Virus record (IMG/VR): IMGVR_UViG_3300032294_002757
Span: 1-20,276 of that record
Reading direction: 5' to 3' (one strand)
DNA: 20,276 bases
Source of the DNA: a virus
In this document: positions 1 through 20,276 of the stretch, piece after piece
How positions within the stretch are numbered: position 1 is the stretch's first letter
Layout: the number at the start of each line of letters is the position of its first letter
Program-made: the position numbers and the translations under genes
The notes under the pieces: generated by a model
Database searches by the model: none
What the model was told of the DNA's origin: nothing
What the model saw: only the letters and a program-made list of their open reading frames with translations

Positions 1-3000
1 ATATATTGTCATAGTTGGTGCTGAAGTTTTGTAAAATTGAATTGTCATAATACTCCACCTCAAACCCTTTTACAGCAATCAAATCTCCAATCTGAAACGA
101 GTGCTGATCTGTGAATTGCAGTTGTGCAAAATCATCCAACACATAGGTCAGAGTTGTGGCGCTGACATTTGTTTCTGTCACACGATACACATTCCATTGT
201 CCGTCTGGATCCTTGGCTGTCCAAATTTTGATTCCACCACCCACGTCAAAGTTTTGATTATACGTGGTAATATCAAACACTGTTGCATCAGCATCATCTA
301 AATGTACGTAACCAGCAGTAGGCAGATCTTCCATGTAAAAATCTTTGTTTCTGTTGCCATACAGGGTGGTGCTGACATTAAACAAGTCGTTGGAATTATA
401 CACATTTGACACGACCAAATTGGCATTGGCCTGTAGATTCACAATTATGTTTCCAGTGCTGTATGTGTTGCCTAGAGTAAATGCCACAGGATTGGTGTTG
501 AATACCGACTGATCTAAAATAAATTCCTTGAATTGATTGCCATCCAGGTCTCCGTATTCGCCAACCTTGAATGCCCACTCCTCAAACAGTGCAATGTTAC
601 CCGACACGTTGTCAAAGTTGCCCTTGGTCAGTGCTGTGATGCTGTTGAGAGTTCCTTTTTCTTTGATCAGGCCTTGATAGAATTTGGTTTGATTTGGTAT
701 GCTGATACCAAGATCGGTCAAATAACTTCTTGGACGGAAACCAATTAGGCCAGCACTGAATAATTGTAGTGTTTCGTTGCTGGGCGGTTGATCAACGTTG
801 TAGATATCCTGTGATTGCTGTGCCAACAGCCCAAGACTTGGTAAAAGTCCTGTTTTGATTTCAGATTCCTGAATCTGTATCCAGTCTGATATGTTGAATT
901 TTGCCGTGGCAGTGATAGCGTTAGGCGCTGTATAATAGTTGTTGTTGAATGTGACAATGTCTCCAACTTGATAATCGGTGTTTGGTGTCCAGTCTCTAAT
1001 GTTTGCAGTGCTGTAAATATATCCGCTGGCACTGAGAGCACCGGTCCATCCTCCTGTTTTGGATCCAGACAACTTTAATCGGAACTGTCTTAGTCCCTGT
1101 GAAGGCACATAAATGATGTCTCCAAAATCACTTTGATTGTCAAAGATCAACACATGCTCAAACTGAATCAGATTCAATCGGGCAAAACATATACCTGTTC
1201 CGTTGAGCGTGGTAATACCAAATCGATTTCCATTGGCAAAATTTTCGGCTCTAACAAGATTAAAATTGGTGTTTTTGATGGGCAAGAAGTTTTGATCCAA
1301 CAAACGTCCCGACATACTGGTGTTGCCAATTTCATCCACCACAGATCCATTGGTCTGTAGTGCAAGTCTACTGGAAGTTGGATTCAACACAATAATGGTG
1401 CCAACGTCCCACCCTTGTTGACTCCAGTATAAAAATTCTCTTACACTGGTTCTAAAATTTCTAACGGCCTGTAGGTCTCGATCAAACTCTTCAAAAACAA
1501 ATCCTGTTTTTTCAAGATAACGTTCGTAACTGATTAAAAAATCACCCAGTTGTTGTATAGTTGCATAGGTGGTGCCGTACGGTACCAGTAGTTCTTTGTT
1601 TGTGGTATCTTGATACAGATTAACCGACACATCTTCCACAGTCACTTGCTCGGCTCTACTGTTGGCAATGCTTGGTAAGATTGTAAAAAACGGGTTGGTA
1701 GTATCATACCCAACCACGCTGTAGCCAGTGGCAGTTCGTTGAACTATTACTGCGCTGTATGTGGCTGTACTGACAGGCACAGATTTATTTAGATAAATGT
1801 GATAATTGTTGTCGGGAACCACAATACCTGCTCGAGTTGCCCCTGGAGTGGTTTGCTCGGCTGTGACTGTGAGAATATTTTTGTCAGTGAATCCAGCAAC
1901 TTTGTAATTTAATTTTACTTCTAAATTGTCTAAATATCCAGTGATCTTTTCAACAGGATCTATTCCCAAATTTTTAATATAATCAGCAATCCAGTTCACA
2001 TAACCGCTGGTGCGTGTCACTGTGCCGGTGGTGCTGTCTCCGTTGACTGACAACAAGGCTGGACTAATTTTTGCGTTGTTTAAATTGTTAAACTGTCCAG
2101 TGATGTCGTTGACATAAAACTGTGATGTATCGTATTGTGTGCCAAAGTAACTGGCTGGTTTGGCCAAGGCCAGGGCCATTTGAACAGCATAAGGATAATC
2201 ACTACTGCGGCGCCAGGCTGTTTCTACTGGACCTTCCTGTCCAACAGTGTAATTGTTGCCACCAGCAGTCAGGTTATATTGTTTGATTATGTTGACATCT
2301 GTGGGTGGCAACAGGTTACCTGCATTGTCTACAGGAATAAAATTGGTCAATCCGGGTCTAGCAAAACGCTCATCTGTGTAGGGTACACCGTTGTTCCAAA
2401 CATACCCGGCTTCAAGGTCTTCCCACAATGTGAAATTGCCCCGAGTGTAAGGAGCTGGTCCATAACGTGTTTGCCACCAGGCAGGTTCAAATCCAAAACC
2501 CAACATTTCCCATGGTGCCAAATTGGGCCTGTCGGTATCGTACCAGTATTTGTAAATGGCACGCCACGATCCCTGCAAGGGCTCATCATTCACAGTGTCT
2601 GTGAATTTTTCATAGTTCCAGGTCCAGGCATTGTTAGCGTCGTACCAGACATTGGTAGTGTAATCCACATTGTTTGTGCCCGACCACTGCAAAAAGTTAC
2701 GTGATAAAATTTGTATAAACTCATTGCGGGTGTATTCAGTGGTTCTAAAACGTCCAGGTACAATGTCATACAGGTTAATGATGTTTTTGCTGTAGTCTGC
2801 TTTGATGTTGTTGTAGATGCGTTTTTCAAGTTCTAATATATAGTCATCACGGAAGTCACCAAATGCTGGCATTACCGATCCGTCGTGGCCGCGTATGACG
2901 TTGGTGGGTGTTTGATAGGTAGTGTCTTCAAATATCAGTGGTTCACTCTTGGGGTACAGTCCCAACTTAGTTGGTGTTTCAGGAATAAAATTTCCGTCGG

Positions 3001-6000
3001 TGTTGAAGTAATCTCTAATCAGTATGGTGTCACCAACTGTGAGTGCAATTGAAAATATCACTGCAGGTACGGTGTTGCTAAAAACATAGTCTCGCCCAGC
3101 AACTAACTGCACTCCGTTGAGCCAGATCAATACTGCGCGATTGCTGAGTTGTGTGTCGTTAAAGATTGTGCTAATTTCGTAGTTGGTCTGCCGAGCATTA
3201 AGTACTGTGTAGTTGATTGCAGTGTAATTGCCGCCCTGTGGCACCATGTCAGAATAGTACCAAGGAAAACTGTTGTTCTTGACAGCATTGATGTTTTGTA
3301 AGATTGCATCTACACCACTGATAGAATCTGCGTAATTGAGTCCAGGCAGTGTGGTGCAAAGGCTTATAAACTTGTTTTTAAAACGACTGTATTCTTTTTT
3401 GGCCAAATCAATGCCATTGACAAAATTGACCACAGGATCATTCAAGAATGTCATGGCATAAATCAACGAAGCACTGTGTTGATTTAACGTTCCATTTTGC
3501 TTTTTAAAATAGGTGTCCTGAACAGGTCGGTTGTTGATAGTGGTGTTTTCCAACAACTTGTTGTAGTGTGTTCTAATTTGTCCCAAAGCAATGGTAGAAA
3601 AATTTTCATTCAAAGGATTTTGACTGAGATTTTTAGGAATCTCATAATAGGCCAGTTTGCTGACACTGTTGCTGTATATTGCTATGTCAAGTTTGTCGCC
3701 CACTGCTGGATCAGACAAAAAGATTATGACGTTGTATTCGCCATATGTGGTCAATTCATAATCTGTATTTTCAACCAACAAAATATTGTTTTTATAAACT
3801 TTGAGATGCGGAATTGATCTTGTGTTTGCTGGCAACACGTCAATTTGCACAAATGCACGATTGACACCATTGATTTGAATCACTCGACCATCAAAAAACT
3901 TGGTAAAGTTTTGATACTGACTGCTGGGCTCTGTTCCCTCCACCCAAGCATTCAATTTCTGTTGTGTGTTCAAACTTGTATTTTTGCCAAGGTATCCAGT
4001 GTTGCAATCGACGGAAGACATGGTTCCAGTGGCCATGTTTGTGACATAGTCAAACGTTTCTGTGTCATAGTGGTTGTCAAACACTATGTCGCCGATGTTG
4101 TTGAAATTTTGATAGCGAAGTGGGAAACCCAAAATAGGATCATTGTTGCCAGTTCCAACACGATAACCAAAAATTTTACTGCCTGTAAAGGTCGATTCAG
4201 GATATGCTGTGGCATCACCAAAACTGTATCCATTGGCATCAAATAAATCAAACAGCGGTGGCTGGTTTATTCCTGTTTTGGCCTGTGCTTCAAACCAATT
4301 GGTGCCATCAAAATAATAAGTTTTTCCAGCATTGTCACCTTCTGTGACTAAGGCATTTTCGCCAGGCAACACAGGATTGTCGTTGGTGGCCACTAGATTG
4401 ATGTAATTTGCTTCAGGTTCTCCGGGCAGTGCTAGTCCTGGAATTTCTGTGACTTCCCAGATTTTGTTTCTGACATTGACATCATAGTCATTGGCAAATA
4501 TTACTCTGTGACCTGGTGCCAAAGTCCTGCCATCTACCACAGCAGTGACCTGTCCTTGTACTCGTGTGGCTGGTATAGTTACACCAAATGCATCTGTTTC
4601 TGCAAAAGAAACCAGATCCACACTGTTTTTGGCTTGGCGTCCAAAATTAAACAATTGTAGGTCTGGCTCAAATTCAATTATGGGTCTGCGACCGGGCAAG
4701 TTGGGACCGTAGTTGGCTGCTGTGTTGTTGTACTGGGCTGTGTTGGTGATTACATCTTTATGGAACCAGCGATTGCTACGACTCCAGGGATTACGGTCTC
4801 GACTGCCGCGATTGACAACAATATAATCAGGCGTGGTGTCTAATAGATCTCCGTATTGTTCCGGCACAACAGTCTGTCCCACAGGCACTAGATTAATAGC
4901 CGTACCAACACCCTCCACATACCACTCTCTGATTCTATAGCCGGTGGTGCCATTCCATTCTCCCACCAACTGCTCGTTTTTGTAGGCCACAGCCGTTCCA
5001 CTGGTGCCTGTGACTGTGGCCCCCATGTCTTCAAGTGCCTTGCTCCAGGTGCTGTAATTGACATAGTCAAATTTGTAATAACTGGCCGGTGTTACTAAAC
5101 TGTCAAATTGAATTTTTAATCCATTGGTAAACACCACACCATTGGGGCTGGTATATCCTACTCGGCCAATAATTTCTGTGTCAACTCTAATTGGATCAGA
5201 TGTATTGTCTATCAGTCTGATCTCACCAACAAATCCTGCATCTCTGCTGTCTTGATAGTAGAGTGTGTCTGTGTTTGCTGTGACAGCAGGAACTATATTA
5301 TAGTTTAGATTGTCATTCAACCAAAATTGATTGGAAGCATAAGTCTTACCTGAACTGATAAACACTTTTTGTCTAGGAGATATTGCAGTCTCAGGAGAAA
5401 GTTGTATGATATAGTCTGTGCCGTCTGCATCAATTGAAACTAGATTGATTTTCCAGGTGCCGGTGCGAACAGCATCTGCGATTACATCTCCAGGACGAAT
5501 GCTAGACACATCTAAACCGGCATACAAAGGGTTTACAGCAGGTGTAGTCCAGTAGGTGTCGTCCTCATCGTTGCCAGTAAAAATTAATGTTTTGTTCTGT
5601 AACTGATTGTTGATTCCGTCAACGCCATCAGTGTATTGATTCAAGAAATCACTGAGCAGGCGATTTTGTATATCAGTGTATTTGAGTGTGATTGCTGCAT
5701 CTACTGTGGCACTGATAGGCATCAAGATATAAAAATCTTGTGCATTATACAAAGGAACACGAAAGGTAACTGTGCCTGTTTCGGCGCCATTACCAGAGAC
5801 TCCAAACACGTCTCTGGTACTGACTGTGGGAAGATTGGGGTCTACTCCGGTCACACCTGGAGCACTTTGTATCCAAAAATTGCTGCCTGGTTGATCCAAG
5901 GTAAATGTGTAGGTTCCGCCACGTACCAGAGTCAGTTGTGTGTTGGGTTGATAGCCAGTGCCAGTAAAGGTGTATCCGCCCACTGCTGAGTTTTTGACCA

Positions 6001-6469
6001 CAGTGTAGTCGGCATTGTAAGGTGCTTGATTTCCATAAACAACTATGGTGTCTGGACCGTCGGGCAACCAGTAATAGTTGAAATAATTTACAAATTTATC
6101 GTAATCAAAATGACCGTCCCAATTGTACATTTCACTGCCAAACAAGCGTTGTTGATTGTCAATCAGTCCACCGTAATTTTGTATGTTTTTTAATAAATCA
6201 ATATAACCAGTGTTGAATTCTATTTCGCCACTTTTGTTGGTTACCACCACACTGGGTTCCATTTGATAATTTTTTCTTAACGCATCCGGCTCAGGCACAT
6301 AATTATCACCTGTTTTGTACGTGGGTGCAAATGTACGTCCTATGTAACCGTTAACAGGTGTGTTGATAGCGTCGGACGCCAATTGATCCATGGTGGCGCC
6401 AAGAAATCGACGGTTGGTGGGAGTACGGAATACTCTAGGTAAAAAGTTAATTGTGTTGACTATGGCCAT
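1..6469 (-). CDS. Giant virion structural protein at the gp7 position (baseplate wedge or fibre-like), C-terminus cut by window edge
   Basis: The frame is open from the ATG at 6469 to the left edge, giving at least 2156 codons. I translated long stretches and spot-checked lines elsewhere and found no in-frame stop. The start overlaps the gp6 stop by one base (TAATG), so translation is coupled. Recognisable segments are NFLPRVFRTPTNRRFLGATM (about residues 8-27), a Trp/Tyr-rich stretch with FNYYWLPDGP (about 130-140), NYGPNLPGRRPIIEFEPD (about 583-600), QPPLFDLFD (about 735), GHDGSVMPAFGDFRDDYILE (about 1190-1210), and WRAIYKYWYDTDRPNLAPWE (about 1298-1318). A carbohydrate-binding-like segment sits near 1825-1863. 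From memory, such segments recur in very large structural proteins of environmental T4-like phages; I cannot name the family with certainty. T4 has gp7 (a wedge protein of about 1030 residues) in this place, so a wedge role is inferred from position. A tail-fibre or adsorption role is the alternative. Confidence 0.7.
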   Translation of the reverse strand, partial: MAIVNTINFLPRVFRTPTNRRFLGATMDQLASDAINTPVNGYIGRTFAPTYKTGDNYVPEPDALRKNYQMEPSVVVTNKSGEIEFNTGYIDLLKNIQNYGGLIDNQQRLFGSEMYNWDGHFDYDKFVNYFNYYWLPDGPDTIVVYGNQAPYNADYTVVKNSAVGGYTFTGTGYQPNTQLTLVRGGTYTFTLDQPGSNFWIQSAPGVTGVDPNLPTVSTRDVFGVSGNGAETGTVTFRVPLYNAQDFYILMPISATVDAAITLKYTDIQNRLLSDFLNQYTDGVDGINNQLQNKTLIFTGNDEDDTYWTTPAVNPLYAGLDVSSIRPGDVIADAVRTGTWKINLVSIDADGTDYIIQLSPETAISPRQKVFISSGKTYASNQFWLNDNLNYNIVPAVTANTDTLYYQDSRDAGFVGEIRLIDNTSDPIRVDTEIIGRVGYTSPNGVVFTNGLKIQFDSLVTPASYYKFDYVNYSTWSKALEDMGATVTGTSGTAVAYKNEQLVGEWNGTTGYRIREWYVEGVGTAINLVPVGQTVVPEQYGDLLDTTPDYIVVNRGSRDRNPWSRSNRWFHKDVITNTAQYNNTAANYGPNLPGRRPIIEFEPDLQLFNFGRQAKNSVDLVSFAETDAFGVTIPATRVQGQVTAVVDGRTLAPGHRVIFANDYDVNVRNKIWEVTEIPGLALPGEPEANYINLVATNDNPVLPGENALVTEGDNAGKTYYFDGTNWFEAQAKTGINQPPLFDLFDANGYSFGDATAYPESTFTGSKIFGYRVGTGNNDPILGFPLRYQNFNNIGDIVFDNHYDTETFDYVTNMATGTMSSVDCNTGYLGKNTSLNTQQKLNAWVEGTEPSSQYQNFTKFFDGRVIQINGVNRAFVQIDVLPANTRSIPHLKVYKNNILLVENTDYELTTYGEYNVIIFLSDPAVGDKLDIAIYSNSVSKLAYYEIPKNLSQNPLNENFSTIALGQIRTHYNKLLENTTINNRPVQDTYFKKQNGTLNQHSASLIYAMTFLNDPVVNFVNGIDLAKKEYSRFKNKFISLCTTLPGLNYADSISGVDAILQNINAVKNNSFPWYYSDMVPQGGNYTAINYTVLNARQTNYEISTIFNDTQLSNRAVLIWLNGVQLVAGRDYVFSNTVPAVIFSIALTVGDTILIRDYFNTDGNFIPETPTKLGLYPKSEPLIFEDTTYQTPTNVIRGHDGSVMPAFGDFRDDYILELEKRIYNNIKADYSKNIINLYDIVPGRFRTTEYTRNEFIQILSRNFLQWSGTNNVDYTTNVWYDANNAWTWNYEKFTDTVNDEPLQGSWRAIYKYWYDTDRPNLAPWEMLGFGFEPAWWQTRYGPAPYTRGNFTLWEDLEAGYVWNNGVPYTDERFARPGLTNFIPVDNAGNLLPPTDVNIIKQYNLTAGGNNYTVGQEGPVETAWRRSSDYPYAVQMALALAKPASYFGTQYDTSQFYVNDITGQFNNLNNAKISPALLSVNGDSTTGTVTRTSGYVNWIADYIKNLGIDPVEKITGYLDNLEVKLNYKVAGFTDKNILTVTAEQTTPGATRAGIVVPDNNYHIYLNKSVPVSTATYSAVIVQRTATGYSVVGYDTTNPFFTILPSIANSRAEQVTVEDVSVNLYQDTTNKELLVPYGTTYATIQQLGDFLISYERYLEKTGFVFEEFDRDLQAVRNFRTSVREFLYWSQQGWDVGTIIVLNPTSSRLALQTNGSVVDEIGNTSMSGRLLDQNFLPIKNTNFNLVRAENFANGNRFGITTLNGTGICFARLNLIQFEHVLIFDNQSDFGDIIYVPSQGLRQFRLKLSGSKTGGWTGALSASGYIYSTANIRDWTPNTDYQVGDIVTFNNNYYTAPNAITATAKFNISDWIQIQESEIKTGLLPSLGLLAQQSQDIYNVDQPPSNETLQLFSAGLIGFRPRSYLTDLGISIPNQTKFYQGLIKEKGTLNSITALTKGNFDNVSGNIALFEEWAFKVGEYGDLDGNQFKEFILDQSVFNTNPVAFTLGNTYSTGNIIVNLQANANLVVSNVYNSNDLFNVSTTLYGNRNKDFYMEDLPTAGYVHLDDADATVFDITTYNQNFDVGGGIKIWTAKDPDGQWNVYRVTETNVSATTLTYVLDDFAQLQFTDQHSFQIGDLIAVKGFEVEYYDNSILQNFSTNYDNI
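881..994 (-). other. Carbohydrate-binding-like module (CBM5/12-type pattern) inside the giant structural protein
   Basis: Translated on the minus strand, this segment has the pattern D-W-x-P-x-x-x-Y-x-x-G-D-x-V-x-x-x-x-x-Y-Y-x-A and ends in S-D-W (about residues 1825-1863 of the giant protein). The spacing of Trp, Tyr, Gly-Asp and Tyr-Tyr resembles the short aromatic-lined chitin/cellulose-binding modules (CBM5/12) often found in phage fibres and secreted hydrolases. Only the pattern is visible here. Sugar binding is inferred, and a fortuitous match within a Trp/Tyr-rich protein is possible. Confidence 0.4.
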
Positions 6470-14592: not shown

Positions 14593-15602
14593 TATAGGAA
14601 TCCACCATTCTTGATGTTGTTGACATTCTTGGTGGGTTGTGTGGCACCAAATGCTGAAGCCGGTTTGCCAGCACCCACTGGATTGATCAAGGCACCTCGA
14701 GCAAAATCCTCCAAACTGAAACCTTGGCTCTGTGCCAGGCGACTGTACACAGGTTGTAAACTTAGGCTCATTTGGCTGGTAGTAGGCATGCGTGTGCTGT
14801 TGAGTCTGGGATTGAGTCCTTGGCTGCCTCTGGTGACACTGGGCTCAGGAATGTCCATGTAGTCTACATCTGCGGGCATGGTGTGACTGAAACTGGTGAC
14901 CACACAAGGTACATTGGGCAAGTAATATTGTCCATAACCATTGAGATACACAATGGGCGGAGGATTGCCTGCGGCTGGGCCAGCACCAAAAAACATCTTG
15001 GTGGCACTTCTAAAAAAGTATATGGCGGCCATCAGGTACTGACCTTCATTGATGTTTTGAACAGTAAAATCTGCGTTCAAGATGATAGCAGACACTTCAC
15101 TGTTGTCGTAAAAATACTGCGCATAATTGCTGTGTGTGAGTTTTTGCGGAGTGTAACTGGCTGTGTGCTGTATGGTCACTGTGGGAGTATATGGGAACAC
15201 CACACCAATTCGTTTGGTTCCACCCAACCCAGACAGTTGTCCCAATGCAGCACCAATGGGGTTGTCGCTGCCGCCACCGCTTTCGGTGACCAGTGGACTC
15301 ATCAATGCGTTGCCGGGATCGTTGTAAAAATACTTGCTGTTGGGTGCCAAACTTACTCGCACACGCCAGTCAGCATCGGCTGACGGAAACGATGGGTACA
15401 CAAATCTGGGTGCAGGCCCTATTGTTCTACTGCTGTATCTAAACATGTCAGCCACATTTTGGCGGCTACTCATGCCATTGGGCGCCAGTCCCACTGCGCC
15501 AGTTAGACCATTGCTGATGCTTTGTCCCAGTTGTGCGCCAAAAGATTGCTGTGATCCGTTGAGCGGACTGCCTGGTAGTTGTGCGTTGGATAAAACTGGC
15601 AT
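14592..15602 (-). CDS. Baseplate tail-tube cap / tube initiator, gp48 or gp54-like
   Basis: A 336-residue protein, first gene of the leftward operon. A Ser/Gly/Gln-rich N-terminus (1-60) precedes DADWRVRVSLAPNSKYFYND. The middle carries VVFPYTPTVTIQHTASYTPQ, HSNYAQYFYDNSEVSAIILN, ADFTVQNINEGQYLMAAIYF and RSATKMFFGAG. These are followed by PPPIVYLNGYGQYYLPNVPC and SFSHTMPADVDYMDIP. That region looks like the tube-protein-like fold of T4 gp48/gp54, which seed tail-tube polymerisation on the hub. The length (T4 gp48 364, gp54 320) suits either, and I cannot decide between them. The ATG at 15602 has an AGGA ribosome site at 15609-15612, six bases away, and a perfect late promoter box further upstream. 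Confidence 0.65.
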   Translation of the reverse strand: MPVLSNAQLPGSPLNGSQQSFGAQLGQSISNGLTGAVGLAPNGMSSRQNVADMFRYSSRTIGPAPRFVYPSFPSADADWRVRVSLAPNSKYFYNDPGNALMSPLVTESGGGSDNPIGAALGQLSGLGGTKRIGVVFPYTPTVTIQHTASYTPQKLTHSNYAQYFYDNSEVSAIILNADFTVQNINEGQYLMAAIYFFRSATKMFFGAGPAAGNPPPIVYLNGYGQYYLPNVPCVVTSFSHTMPADVDYMDIPEPSVTRGSQGLNPRLNSTRMPTTSQMSLSLQPVYSRLAQSQGFSLEDFARGALINPVGAGKPASAFGATQPTKNVNNIKNGGFL

Positions 15603-15621: not shown

Positions 15622-15631
15622 AGTATTTATA
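15622..15631 (-). promoter_or_regulatory. T4-type late promoter at the head of the baseplate operon
   Basis: The minus strand reads TATAAATACT, an exact match to the T4 late consensus TATAAATA. T4 geometry puts +1 near 15618, leaving a leader of about 16 bases that contains the AGGA ribosome site. It drives the tube-cap gene and probably the whole leftward set to gp5 and beyond. There is no -35 element, as expected for gp55-dependent promoters. Confidence 0.85.
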
Positions 15632-15709: not shown

Positions 15710-15717
15710 GTGCTAAC
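15702..15717. repeat. Inverted repeat overlapping the gp55 -10 element and start site
   Basis: GTTAG and CTAAC form a perfect 5-base dyad with a 6-base spacer. It covers the -10 element and predicted +1, where a bound repressor would block transcription. The arms are short, so an operator role is a suggestion only. Confidence 0.4.
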
Positions 15718-15721
15718 TTTA

Positions 15722-15726
15722 AAGGA
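15722..15726 (+). promoter_or_regulatory. Ribosome binding site that decides the gp55 start
   Basis: AAGGA lies seven bases before the GTG at 15734. The alternative in-frame GTG at 15710 overlaps or precedes the predicted transcription start and has no ribosome site, so the downstream GTG is preferred. Confidence 0.7.
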
Positions 15727-15733
15727 ATTACAG

Positions 15734-16624
15734 GTGCGCCATAATTATCTCAACAACAAAGACATTCTCAAAGAAATACACAAAAGCAAAACAACCTACT
15801 GTTCATATGTTGACCCAAAACACGCCGACTATGACATGATTTTGCCAGATGTCAGCAAAATAAACAAAAAAAATATCATGCAGGGACGACGCAATCGTGC
15901 CGAACGCCTGGCCAAATTGGCACACGAAGCCGCTACGGTAGATGGGGTCAAGCGCAAGTTGGATGAATTTGAAGTCAAACTCAAAGACGTCAAAGACACT
16001 GATGTGGTGTTTAGAATCATGACCTGGGATCATATTCCTATTGATGATGTCAAAAGCCGCAAGGCCGCTGTAAAAGCACTGGAAGAAGAAGAAGGTGCTG
16101 TGCCGCGCAGCGAATACGACGACGACGATCTGGACCTGGCTGGCAATACCAAGTATGTCAAATGCAATTTTCCACCGTTTCAACACTACATGGTCGACGA
16201 AGCAGGAGAACCTGTGTGCGTGGGCAAGAGTCACTGGAAGGGCGATTTGGAAAAAGGCTCGTTCAATCGTGAACACGGCAAGATGACTCCAAAATTGGCC
16301 AACATGTTTATCAAACTATGTGAACGCTATGCCACAAGATCAAACTGGCGCGGTTACACCTACAATGACGAAATGCGCAGTCAGGCTTTGTTACAGTTGA
16401 GTCAAATTGGCCTGCAGTTCGACGAAGCCAAGAGTCAAAATCCGTTTGCCTACTACACCGCGGCCATTACCAATTCATTTACTCGAGTGCTCAACATTGA
16501 AAAACGCAATCAAAATTTGCGTGATGATATTTTAGAAATGAACAACTTGACTCCAAGTTACACACGTCAGGGCCTGAAAATTTCCACCGGTGGTGGTGGC
16601 AGCGATGGTGGCTACGACGATTGA
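15734..16624 (+). CDS. 55: Late-transcription sigma factor gp55
   Basis: A 296-residue protein starting with GTG (RHNYLNNKDILKEIHKSKTT...). The N-terminal segment LNNKDILKEIHKSKTTYCSY recurs, from memory, in gp55 of environmental T4-like phages. An acidic patch (EEEEGAVPRSEYDDDDLD, about 115-133) separates it from the sigma part: FNREHGKMTPKLANMFIKLC (from about 177), then NPFAYYTAAITNSFTRVLNI and EKRNQNLRDDILE (about 236-268), which match the core-binding and promoter-opening sigma region 2 as kept in gp55. gp55 binds host core polymerase and reads the TATAAATA box; three such boxes lie in this window. T4 gp55 is 185 residues, so this form is about 110 longer. The C-terminus is Gly/Asp-rich (STGGGGSDGGYDD) instead of the hydrophobic-acidic clamp-binding tail known in T4. 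It is the first gene of the rightward set. Confidence 0.85.
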   Translation: MRHNYLNNKDILKEIHKSKTTYCSYVDPKHADYDMILPDVSKINKKNIMQGRRNRAERLAKLAHEAATVDGVKRKLDEFEVKLKDVKDTDVVFRIMTWDHIPIDDVKSRKAAVKALEEEEGAVPRSEYDDDDLDLAGNTKYVKCNFPPFQHYMVDEAGEPVCVGKSHWKGDLEKGSFNREHGKMTPKLANMFIKLCERYATRSNWRGYTYNDEMRSQALLQLSQIGLQFDEAKSQNPFAYYTAAITNSFTRVLNIEKRNQNLRDDILEMNNLTPSYTRQGLKISTGGGGSDGGYDD

Positions 16625-16672: not shown

Positions 16673-17692
16673 ATGACTAACCTTTTTAAAAAGGCAGCTG
16701 TTTTTACGGACATACACTTTGGTCTTAAAAGCAACAGCCAACTACACAACGAAGACTGTCTTAATTTTGTAAAATGGGCCACTGCCAAAGCCCAAGAAGA
16801 AGGATGCGAAACTGCCATGTTCTTGGGTGATTGGCACAACAATCGTGCGTCCATCAACATTGTCACACTCAACTATAGTCTGCGTGCCTTGGAGCATTTA
16901 AATGCTAATTTTGAAAACACTTACTTTATCCCTGGCAACCACGACCTGTACTATCGCGATAAAAGAGATGTACAATCAGTTGAATGGGCAAAACATCTCT
17001 CTAACATCCATATATGTAATGACTGGACTAGCCACGGCGATGTTACTATTGCGCCTTGGTTGGTAGGCGATGACTTCAAGCGTCTTAAGAAGTTAAAAGG
17101 CAAATACCTATTTGGGCACTTTGAACTGCCCGGTTACCTAATGAATGCCATGGTGGCCATGCCCGATCATGGCGACATTGATGCTAAAAGCGACATGGCC
17201 GGATTTGAGCATGTGTTCAGCGGACACTTTCACAAACGACAGACCAAGGGCAATATCACTTACTTGGGCAATTGTTTTCCACACAACTATGCCGATGCCG
17301 GTGATGACGATAGAGGCATGATGATCCTAGAATGGGACAAACCGCCGGTGTATCATGCCTGGCCCGATCAGCCCATGTATCGTGTGTTTCAACTGAGTGA
17401 TGTGCTTAAACACACAGAAGTCATGCTGAAACCCAACATGCATGTGCGTGTGAACTTGGACATTGACATCAGTTACGAAGAAGCCACGTTTATCAAAGAA
17501 ACATTTATAGACACCTACAAACTGCGTGAGATTACCTTGATTCCTGCCAAGGTCACTGATCTGACTGAATACGAAATACAAGGCAACATTGCATTTGAGA
17601 GTGTAGATCAAATTGTATTTGGTCAATTGAGCAGTATTGAAAGCGAACAATTTAACAAAAATTTGTTGTTGGATATCTATAGAAACCTATGA
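16673..17692 (+). CDS. 47: Recombination nuclease subunit gp47 (Mre11/SbcD-like)
   Basis: A 339-residue metallophosphoesterase, the same length as T4 gp47. Metal-site motifs appear in order: Asp13-x-His15 (TDIHFG), Gly52-Asp53 (FLGDWHNNR), Gly88-Asn-His-Asp91 (IPGNHD), Gly148-His149 (FGHFE) and Gly184-His-Phe-His187 (FSGHFHKR). These bind the two Mn ions of Mre11-type nucleases. With gp46, it resects DNA ends for recombination-dependent replication and helps degrade host DNA in the cytoplasm. The C-terminal 100 residues lack clear motifs and probably contact gp46. It ends in an ATGA overlap with the next gene. In T4, genes 47 and 46 lie close together with only small reading frames between; here about 1.66 kb of other genes separate them. 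Confidence 0.95.
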   Translation: MTNLFKKAAVFTDIHFGLKSNSQLHNEDCLNFVKWATAKAQEEGCETAMFLGDWHNNRASINIVTLNYSLRALEHLNANFENTYFIPGNHDLYYRDKRDVQSVEWAKHLSNIHICNDWTSHGDVTIAPWLVGDDFKRLKKLKGKYLFGHFELPGYLMNAMVAMPDHGDIDAKSDMAGFEHVFSGHFHKRQTKGNITYLGNCFPHNYADAGDDDRGMMILEWDKPPVYHAWPDQPMYRVFQLSDVLKHTEVMLKPNMHVRVNLDIDISYEEATFIKETFIDTYKLREITLIPAKVTDLTEYEIQGNIAFESVDQIVFGQLSSIESEQFNKNLLLDIYRNL

Positions 17693-18057
17693 CCCAGACT
17701 GATGTTATCACAGAACTGGAACAACAATATCAAATAATCAGCACTATCAATTTGATTGAGTTCGACACGTTGCCGACTGGGCGTTTGTATACTTGTGTGC
17801 GACAGGCACGCAAAGAATGTTTTAATGACAACGAACGCATTGTGGTACTGGCACCCAATGGTCTACAAAAAACCTATGCAGACCAACCACACGACATAAT
17901 TGTGCAGTTGGAAAAATATTTGCAACATCACGACATTTCCCATTATTTTATTGTTGTGGTGACCAACATTGTTGGATTGCCCGATGAACTGGCACAGGTA
18001 CATGCGCTGTACAATCCACGCGAATCACACCAATTACAATGCAGGTTCTATCAATGA
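17689..18057 (+). CDS. Unknown 122-residue protein, coupled to gp47 and the radical SAM gene
   Basis: I do not recognise this protein. It starts at the ATGA overlap with gp47 and ends at an ATGA overlap with the radical SAM gene, so translation is coupled on both sides. It alternates helices and strands: an N-terminal helix (TDVITELEQQYQII), a basic segment (YTCVRQARKECF, about 35-46), a strand (ERIVVLAPNGLQKTY, about 50-64), a helix (HDIIVQLEKYLQHH) and a hydrophobic strand (SHYFIVVVTNIVG, about 84-96). Three cysteines (two near 36 and 44, one near the end) do not form a CxxC pair. There is no signal peptide, and the hydrophobic strand is too short for a membrane anchor. The length and alpha/beta pattern suggest a small folded domain. 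A partner or substrate-presenting role for the enzyme is guessed from coupling alone. Confidence 0.75.
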   Translation: MTQTDVITELEQQYQIISTINLIEFDTLPTGRLYTCVRQARKECFNDNERIVVLAPNGLQKTYADQPHDIIVQLEKYLQHHDISHYFIVVVTNIVGLPDELAQVHALYNPRESHQLQCRFYQ

Positions 18058-19346
18058 CCAACAAGGTATTCCCCATACAAAACCAATCTGCCTGCTTGTT
18101 GAAGTGGGCCTGGAGTACCATTTATTTCAACAGCGGAACATCTGCAAGTTGTCATCGCACACAAAAATATGCCATAGACCCCAAGGACTTTGACAATTTT
18201 CACAATTTACCAGACAAAGTTTCTGCCAGAGAGTTGATGCTCAACAGTCAATGGCCCGGTGCCGGCTGTGAATATTGTCGAAACGTAGAGGATGCCGGTG
18301 GTGTCAGTGACAGGCAAAATACCTTGGCACAGGACAACGGCTGGTTGGTACCACCCGAATTGGCACACGACCCCGTGACCACTTCTGCAACTCCCACCAT
18401 ACTGGAAGTCTACTTCCGTAACACCTGCAACATGGCCTGTGTGTATTGTGGTCCACATCACAGCAGTTTGTGGGAAGAGGAAAATCGAAAGTTTGGCAAT
18501 TCGTTTCATACCAGAACATTTGATATCAAACAGGCACAGCACAACAGTGACTATGATACCATGGTCTCAGGACTATGGCGCTATTTGGATCACGAACAAC
18601 GTTACAAAACAATCAAGCGATATCACATCTTAGGCGGGGAGCCGTTTTTGATGCCGGAACTGGATGACAGCATTGAATTTTGGCGCACTCACGCCAATCC
18701 TGATTTGATTTTTAGTGTAGTGACCAATTTAAACATACCCACTGCACGATTTGAAAAATATCTTTCGCAGTTTAAAAAATTAGTCTTGTCGAACAAAATA
18801 TGGAAACTGCAAATCACTGCCAGTTTGGATTGCTGGGGCTCAGAACAAGAATATGTACGCTACGGTCTTGACTTGGATCTGTGGCATCGTAACTTTGAGT
18901 TGTTGTTGAATCAACCTTGGATATCATTGAGCATCAACAGTGCCATATCGGCACTGACTATCAAATCCTTGCCCTTGTTGTTGGAACGCATCAACGAGTG
19001 GAACACCAAACAAATTGCCACAGCCTCATGGTTTCAACGTGCATGGGCAGCAGAACCCATTATTCACAGTTTCAACACGTCTGGAGAATTTGATAATCCT
19101 TATCTGTTTGATGGTAGTGTATTTGCCCAAGACTTTGAACGAATATTGACATTAATGCCAACTGGCACACCAATACAACAGGCACAACACACGGCCATGC
19201 AAGGTATTGCCACTGCAAGTCTGGCATGCAAAAACAACATTGACCAAATTAACAAATTGAAAACATACTTGACTGATTTAGATCAACGGCGCAACACCAG
19301 TTGGCCTAGCCATTTTGCTTGGCTAAACAAAGATTTTAGTGTATAA
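18054..19346 (+). CDS. Radical SAM enzyme with N-terminal SPASM/twitch-like cysteine motif
   Basis: A 430-residue protein. I chose the ATG at 18054, which forms ATGA with the upstream stop; an earlier in-frame ATG at 18039 lies inside the upstream gene. The radical SAM cluster motif is Cys125-x3-Cys129-x2-Cys132 (FRNTCNMACVYCGP), and the SAM-binding GGEP motif is at 194-197 (HILGGEPF). N-terminal to this are Cys14, Gly28 and Cys33, fitting the C-x(9-15)-G-x4-C start of SPASM/twitch modules, and Cys72-x2-Cys75, which could hold an auxiliary Fe-S cluster. This placement matches what I recall as the N-twitch radical SAM family, known from phages and bacteria with unknown substrate. Such enzymes cleave SAM to a 5'-deoxyadenosyl radical; peptides, sugars or nucleotides are possible targets. 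Its location within the gp47-gp46 operon suggests early or middle expression. Confidence 0.88.
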   Translation: MTNKVFPIQNQSACLLKWAWSTIYFNSGTSASCHRTQKYAIDPKDFDNFHNLPDKVSARELMLNSQWPGAGCEYCRNVEDAGGVSDRQNTLAQDNGWLVPPELAHDPVTTSATPTILEVYFRNTCNMACVYCGPHHSSLWEEENRKFGNSFHTRTFDIKQAQHNSDYDTMVSGLWRYLDHEQRYKTIKRYHILGGEPFLMPELDDSIEFWRTHANPDLIFSVVTNLNIPTARFEKYLSQFKKLVLSNKIWKLQITASLDCWGSEQEYVRYGLDLDLWHRNFELLLNQPWISLSINSAISALTIKSLPLLLERINEWNTKQIATASWFQRAWAAEPIIHSFNTSGEFDNPYLFDGSVFAQDFERILTLMPTGTPIQQAQHTAMQGIATASLACKNNIDQINKLKTYLTDLDQRRNTSWPSHFAWLNKDFSV

Positions 19347-19347
19347 T
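19319..19347 (+). promoter_or_regulatory. Sigma70-type promoter for gp46, nested in the end of the radical SAM gene
   Basis: A perfect TATAAT (19342-19347) overlaps the radical SAM stop codon. TTGGCT (four of six consensus bases) lies 17 bases upstream at 19319-19324. Predicted +1 is about 19354, two bases before the gp46 ATG, so again nearly leaderless. It would let gp46 be expressed apart from the cassette. Confidence 0.55.
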
Positions 19348-19355
19348 AAACATCC

Positions 19356-20276
19356 ATGTTTAAAATAAAAGACCTTACTGTTAAAAACTTTATGAGTGTG
19401 GGCAATACCACACAGGCTGTTGATTTTGATCGCAGAGATCTTACTCTAGTCCTGGGAGAAAACTTAGACCTGGGCGGCGACGATTCGGGTGCTAGAAACG
19501 GCACAGGCAAGACCACCATTATCAATGCCCTCAGTTATGCCCTGTACGGCAACGCACTCACAAACATCAAAAAAGACAATCTGATCAACAAGACCAACGG
19601 CAAAGGCATGATGGTCACTATTGATTTTGAAAAGGACGGCATCAACTATCGCATCGAGCGTGGGCGCAAGCCAACCACAATGAGGTTTTGGGTAGGTGAC
19701 CAAGAAAAAGAAATTACCGATGATGCGCAAGGTGATTCAAGAGAAACTCAAGCCGAAATAGAACGCATGCTGGGCATGAGTCACGACATGTTCAAACACA
19801 TAGTGGCTCTCAATACCTACACAGAACCGTTCCTGGCACTTAAAGCCAATGATCAACGCACCATCATTGAACAACTCTTGGGCATTACCTTGCTGAGCGA
19901 AAAGGCAGATCGACTAAAAGAAACAAATAAAAACACCAAGGATGCCATTACCAAGGAAGAGTTTAGAATCAAGGCCGTGGGTGATGCCAATCAACGAATA
20001 CAAGAACAAATTGAAGCGTTGAAACGTAGACAAACTTTATGGATCAACAAGCATGCAGAAGAAACGCAAAAGTTACAGACGGGACTCCAAGAACTACAGA
20101 GAATTGATATCGAGGCCGAGGTACAGGCACACAAAGATCTTGCGACGTGGGATCAACTTAGAAAGGACCTCAATGAGCTTTCGTCGGCGATCGGTCGTGC
20201 GAAACTGGACCTGGGTCGCGAAGAAAAAACCATTGAACGCTTATCAAAAGATATCGTTTCGTTGGAAAATCATACG
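19356..20276 (+). CDS. 46: Recombination nuclease ATPase subunit gp46 (Rad50/SbcC-like), 3' end cut by window edge
   Basis: 307 codons of an open frame from ATG (FKIKDLTVKNFMSVGNTTQA...). The Rad50-type nucleotide site is RNGTGKTT at 47-54, within GENLDLGGDDSGARNGTGKT. Next come INALSYALYGNALTNIKKDN and NKTNGKGMMVTIDFEKDG, then RMLGMSHDMFKHIVALNTYT and EPFLALKANDQRTIIEQLLG (about 140-180), which resemble the signature region before the coiled coil in T4 gp46. From about 185 onward the sequence is charged and heptad-like, the start of the long coiled coil. The second ATPase half lies beyond the edge (T4 gp46 is 560 residues). It pairs with gp47 as the end-processing nuclease. No Shine-Dalgarno sequence precedes the ATG. 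Confidence 0.95.
   Translation, partial: MFKIKDLTVKNFMSVGNTTQAVDFDRRDLTLVLGENLDLGGDDSGARNGTGKTTIINALSYALYGNALTNIKKDNLINKTNGKGMMVTIDFEKDGINYRIERGRKPTTMRFWVGDQEKEITDDAQGDSRETQAEIERMLGMSHDMFKHIVALNTYTEPFLALKANDQRTIIEQLLGITLLSEKADRLKETNKNTKDAITKEEFRIKAVGDANQRIQEQIEALKRRQTLWINKHAEETQKLQTGLQELQRIDIEAEVQAHKDLATWDQLRKDLNELSSAIGRAKLDLGREEKTIERLSKDIVSLENHT

Follow-up and report, generated by a model that had tools for sequence, protein, structure and literature searches.

The window analysed here is a 20,276-base IMG/VR virus record, in which five plus-strand genes follow one another in the order gp55-gp47-p122-rSAM-gp46. The locus is anchored on the left by a gp55-like late sigma factor gene (15710..16624; phrog_12791, E 1.5e-81), followed by gp47, encoding the SbcD/Mre11-like nuclease subunit (16673..17692; phrog_100, E 2.4e-60, with a Metallophos match above the Pfam cut-off). 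Two genes separate it from gp46, which encodes the SbcC/Rad50-like ATPase and is still open at the window end (19356..20276; phrog_77, E 3.7e-58): p122, for a protein of 122 residues (17689..18057), and rSAM1, for a 430-residue N-terminal-twitch radical SAM enzyme (18054..19346). ATGA overlaps join gp47 to p122 at 17689 and p122 to rSAM1 at 18054. The start of rSAM1 was set at 18054, the position at which its relatives begin; the start given by the ORF caller, 18039, makes it longer. Four other contigs, each from a different metagenome, show the same gene order (L002, 14.6 kb; L003, 357 kb; L004, 220 kb; L005, 34 kb), which rules out an assembly accident. The gp47-p122-rSAM1-gp46 arrangement is real and conserved, and the original prediction of two genes joined by ATGA between gp47 and gp46 holds.

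A promoter of its own had also been proposed for gp46. Promoter-like hexamers (TTGGCT-N17-TATAAT, 10/12 match) are present 5' of gp46 on the plus strand at 19319-19347, and TATAAT is held at the same place in six relatives (L002, L004, L005, L006, L009, L010). The site overlaps the rSAM1 stop codon, however, and promoter-like sites in the region are not above chance (11 vs 9.4 in shuffles), so that a separate gp46 promoter is only suggestive. The sole perfect T4-type late promoter box in the window (TATAAATA) lies at 15624-15631 on the minus strand, just 5' of a minus-strand structural gene starting at 15602. Further left, a minus-strand frame of at least 2156 codons (2-6469) runs off the left end and adjoins a 1052-aa gene; it probably encodes a giant baseplate protein.

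The radical SAM enzyme rSAM1

rSAM1 matches NF033640 (N_Twi_rSAM, twitch domain-containing radical SAM protein) with 196.2 bits over positions 2-395 of 398, above the curated cut-off of 170 bits. Seven cysteines and a GGE motif at 194-196 are invariant across 24 homologues. Judged by the motifs, C14/C33/C72/C75 are the N-terminal twitch cysteines for a predicted auxiliary [4Fe-4S] site and C125/C129/C132 (CX3CX2C) would bind the SAM cluster, followed by GGE as in the parent family. Since all seven cluster cysteines and GGE are invariant, rSAM1 should be catalytically competent. It does not belong to the prokaryotic viperins, scoring 25.3 bits against NF038283 (cut-off 180).

Within the parent family, which has no assigned function, rSAM1 represents a viral subfamily with sharp bounds on its own profile: members score at least 496 bits, two intermediates 413-428 and the rest at most 264. 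Hundreds of matches were found in viral contigs, and the bacterial genome collection gave only two that span the greater part of the enzyme (36% and 27%). A bacterial origin was considered and rejected, as these two matches are distant and one lies on an 8-kb MAG contig. By its distribution the rSAM1 group is a phage subfamily. Searching INPHARED by tblastn with rSAM1, p122 or a cluster enzyme gave no match; a uvsX-type copy of rSAM1 matched two Vibrio phages only, at 27%.

A search of PDB sequences found nothing with rSAM1 alone and weak matches only with its profile. The AlphaFold model of rSAM1 (pLDDT 89) has DesII (Z 12.1) and BlsE (Z 11.9) as its best structural neighbours, together with SkfB, anSME and ChlB (Z 11.5-12.0). 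DesII, BlsE, anSME and SkfB share the radical SAM barrel with the model (VIA Z about 12 over 215-240 residues), but identity is 11-17%, mainly the barrel superposes, and the twitch domain of rSAM1 is N-terminal. As mostly the barrel is aligned, the sugar-type enzymes DesII and BlsE tie with the peptide maturases, and the comparison does not separate sugar from peptide chemistry.

p122 and the N-dom of related phage enzymes

The original prediction described the product of p122 as unknown, and no family match was found in Pfam, NCBIfam or PHROGs. Because four relatives keep it (45-51% identical to that of the window) and dN/dS is low (NG86, 0.13-0.17 where computable, with dS saturated), p122 is a real gene. 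It diverges much faster than the adjoining genes (51% vs 82-93% identity). An HMM built from p122 only matched the N-terminal ~110 residues of an NF033640 enzyme of 505 aa in L017 (E 1e-4), and the iterated profile collected about 50 proteins with this domain (N-dom), most of which carry it fused N-terminal to the twitch domain (some 45 phage enzymes). Judged by these profile matches p122 is the stand-alone form of a domain that some related phage enzymes carry fused in front of their twitch domain, which gives the supposedly unknown protein a kinship. The best conserved N-dom positions are R50, D82, I83 and F87 (p122 numbering).

The p122 model (pLDDT 72.5) shows a small domain with a predicted alternating beta/alpha fold. 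Foldseek/VIA searches with it gave no match at E<=0.001; the best Z, 6.9, was to P-loop ATPase domains and is taken as a common alpha/beta arrangement of the predicted fold. The N-dom profile gave weak matches only among PDB sequences, and these were to designed or knotted proteins. Neither the N-dom nor the gp47|gp46 slot was found described in the literature searched.

Fusions of the N-dom occur in more than one N_Twi clade, the tree needing 3-4 changes, and the fused enzymes are mostly encoded at gp55/47/46 or gp32|uvsX. In L017 and L136 the gene of an N-dom enzyme stands directly 5' of an rSAM1-family gene; in L129 a single short gene separates the two. The fusions to N_Twi enzymes suggest, by the domain-fusion argument, that the N-dom works with such enzymes in general, and they are good evidence for a partnership of this kind. 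The case for a partnership of p122 with rSAM1 in particular is weaker: in L276 and L279 a stand-alone N-dom gene has no N_Twi gene next to it, so the N-dom does not have to act with the enzyme encoded beside it. The stand-alone N-dom genes in L276 (6116-7190), L279 (5521-6587) and L176 (1831-3035) adjoin a gene of 173-188 aa that contains a VVTETV...SEK motif and by eye has the look of a glycosyltransferase half, without Pfam support. Loss of the N-dom to p122 by the 443-aa cluster enzyme of L064 was also considered but is doubtful as to direction, since other members of its orthologue group are likewise without an N-dom.

Twitch/SPASM enzymes often modify peptides, and a peptide is the main chemical rival to a sugar, glycan or small molecule as substrate. 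In such a RiPP-like modification rSAM1 would mature a peptide and p122 would either serve for recognition or be the substrate, in line with the small size of p122, its position 5' of rSAM1 and the presence of SkfB, anSME and ChlB among the nearest folds. p122, however, is predicted to be a 110-residue alpha/beta domain, normally fused to an enzyme, and not a leader-core precursor; it has no PqqD/RRE match in Pfam, and genes for carbamoyl-, sulfo- and methyltransferases are among the cargo nearby. These features make peptide maturation doubtful.

Cargo slots and genomic places of rSAM1-family genes

The gp47|gp46 junction was surveyed in 80 loci gathered by gp47 alone, so that radical SAM content did not steer the choice. 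Among the 76 loci in which gp46 is visible, the junction was empty in 32 and loaded in 44, with cargo ranging from SGNH-like DUF6071, other radical SAM, AMP-binding (adenylating), Methyltransf_24 and sulfotransferase-like genes to unknown ones. Fused N-dom enzymes were present in five of these junctions and p122 with rSAM1 in two. The nearest relative by gp47 (L239, 94% identical) has gp47 and gp46 joined with no insert; the two genes are also directly joined in Paride, and two other genes lie between them in Phosso. T4 itself carries two small genes in this junction, 46.1 and 46.2, with 4-bp overlaps with gp47 and gp46. They resemble the insert in number, place and overlaps but are annotated as DUF5487 (46.1) and hypothetical (46.2), and Pfam gave no such match for p122 or rSAM1. 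Since the junction is often empty or filled with many unrelated genes, it is a permissive, non-specific slot for cargo in general.

Of the 104 rSAM1-family genes whose places we compared, 43 are neighbours of uvsX, 19 belong to the gp55-47-46 locus and share its strand, 5 run convergent to gp46 and 28 are found elsewhere; the other 9 are without context. Within the locus the gene occupies gp55|gp47 in L012, L015, L017 and L077-L080 and gp47|gp46 in the remainder. p122 accompanies 5 of the 19 (window, L002-L005), and in L006 and L017 the locus also encodes a fused N-dom enzyme; the other 12 copies have neither p122 nor a fused N-dom enzyme nearby. These numbers contradict a fixed cassette, and the places contradict a pair found always between gp47 and gp46, as the enzyme also occurs in gp55|gp47, convergent to gp46 and by a carbamoyltransferase gene, with a paralogue between uvsX and uvsY. 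The enzyme is usually alone and in unrelated positions, the finding that the original prediction had named as speaking against a pair, and it does so for a fixed pair. What is left of the proposed functional pair is a partnership suggested by domain fusion elsewhere, but no conserved pairing.

The copies linked to uvsX usually have a short acidic gene on their 5' side and, in most cases, a UvsY-like gene on their 3' side. Genes of the same subfamily lie between uvsX (with the short acidic gene) and the UvsY-like gene in L065 (8566-5524, minus strand), L098 (4683-7693) and L032 (4692-7693), and this insertion was seen in many contigs. L065 has more radical SAM genes on both sides of uvsX. Of the 95 scorable rSAM1-family loci, 67 are within 3 kb of gp55/47/46 or uvsX. 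Gene place follows clade on the rSAM1 tree, with 13 changes vs 52 in shuffles. One or two extra radical SAM-like genes (CxxxCxxC) were often observed 3' of gp46 (L246, L250, L253, L260, L296), which makes the gp55-gp46 locus a radical-SAM-rich region in this phage group.

The large relatives G001, G002 and G004 (the records of L003, L004 and L006) have 14-16 NF033640 matches per genome, of which about six share one cluster with a carbamoyltransferase gene (Pfam Carbam_trans N and C) and SGNH-like genes. The large T4-like pattern of multiple radical SAM, carbamoyltransferase and SGNH-like genes was also observed for L064, L068, L076 and L136. In both G001 (G001:C1:211291-212181) and G002 (G002:C1:54198-55088) a twitch radical SAM match is broken by one TGA and one TAG. 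An amidinotransferase reading of a cluster gene in L084 was dropped, as family searches gave no support.

The carbamoyltransferase was found at 66% identity or more in 12 records. Six of them have an rSAM1-family gene at a distance of 3-700 bp from it, and two have one elsewhere inside the cluster; in G008, G020 and G028, which have rSAM1 by the carbamoyltransferase gene, gp47 is 45-49 kb distant. The remaining four records (G001, G002, G004, G012), including the two largest relatives of the window phage, have rSAM1 at gp47/46, about 46-50 kb from the carbamoyltransferase gene, and no copy beside the latter. A supported branch (SH-aLRT 97) joins a clade mainly from the carbamoyltransferase cluster with the gp47/46 clade, and the uvsX clade stands apart. 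The simplest reading is that one gene lineage changed place between the carbamoyltransferase cluster and the gp47/46 locus.

Radical SAM gene cassettes have been described in T4-like environmental phages: PMC5332604 reports a T4-like marine genome with 12 such genes, and PMC7029224 places radical SAM cassettes in the host-recognition island of pelagimyophages. As here, many radical SAM genes per large genome vary among close relatives; the gp47|gp46 slot, the N-dom and the split N-dom are not named in the accessible text of either paper.

The gathering of rSAM1 and N-dom enzymes at recombination genes goes beyond random scatter and counts against reading them as cargo. They might recur by gp46/47, uvsX, uvsY and gp32 because they act on the recombination or replication machinery or on DNA, for example by modifying a recombination protein or a base. 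The 67 loci close to gp55/47/46 or uvsX, the main places of the N-dom enzymes and the UvsY-like gene 3' of the uvsX-linked copies all fit this. Location is inherited by clade, however, which means few independent arrivals; many unrelated genes fill the gp47/46 slots; sister genes of rSAM1 adjoin the carbamoyltransferase gene, far from gp47; and other N_Twi genes of the same genomes lie in clusters or at other loci. A recombination role is thus possible given the striking repeated neighbourhood, but we regard it as improbable. The more specific version, in which N-dom and rSAM1-type enzymes are dedicated partners of the gp46/47 and gp32-uvsX-uvsY loci, their target being a recombination protein, a nucleotide or DNA and p122 being a split domain that acts in trans, seems very improbable. 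As the gp55/gp47/gp46 junctions are cargo slots, adjacency to repair genes should not be taken as a sign of a repair function.

Function of the insert

It is likewise very improbable that p122 is a decaying and now functionless remnant of a fused N-dom enzyme: such enzymes exist in the same slot (L164, L165, L168, L173-L175) and p122 evolves faster than its neighbours, but it is intact in four relatives with low dN/dS, keeps R50, D82, I83 and F87 as in the fused domains, and lies outside the 27-row clade of the same-slot N-doms (97/92), so that the N-dom tree, which shows a monophyletic p122 clade (97/95) with no supported place among N-doms, gives a remnant no support.

We favour, with somewhat better than even confidence, the view that the insert is a relocatable tailoring cargo consisting of rSAM1 and the detached accessory domain p122, which probably acts on a glycan or small molecule and not on DNA ends. 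The two genes would then be a chemical-tailoring module probably parked in a permissive junction of the gp55-gp47-gp46 locus and not a part of the nuclease. The insert would retain the translation coupling of gp47 and leave gp46 intact; gp46 is indeed intact in the junction, as expected of the auxiliary module first proposed, which has no connection in sequence with end resection.

As part of such a cargo, rSAM1 would be one of up to 14-16 N-terminal-twitch radical SAM enzymes per genome in this phage group and would belong to the tailoring repertoire of multiple radical SAM, carbamoyltransferase, SGNH and sulfotransferase genes. The enzyme would reduce SAM at the C125/C129/C132 cluster to yield a 5'-deoxyadenosyl radical, with the twitch cluster serving substrate binding or electron transfer. 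Its substrate is most likely a sugar, glycan or small molecule and less likely a peptide; the same target may also be decorated by the other cargo enzymes (carbamoyl-, sulfo- and methyltransferase), and the modification would change the infected cell, presumably to the benefit of the phage. p122 would probably supply in trans to rSAM1, or to another N_Twi enzyme, what the fused N-dom gives in cis, for example substrate or partner binding.

The enzyme family and this kind of cargo slot were already known; as far as the literature was searched, p122 as a split N-dom, the cargo spectrum of the slot and the link of rSAM1 to the multi-radical-SAM cluster are new. In large environmental T4-like phages a dozen or more genes serve radical SAM chemistry, and the locus offers a small experimental handle on it, with one enzyme, one detached accessory domain, a relative with an empty slot and a link by descent to the carbamoyltransferase cluster.
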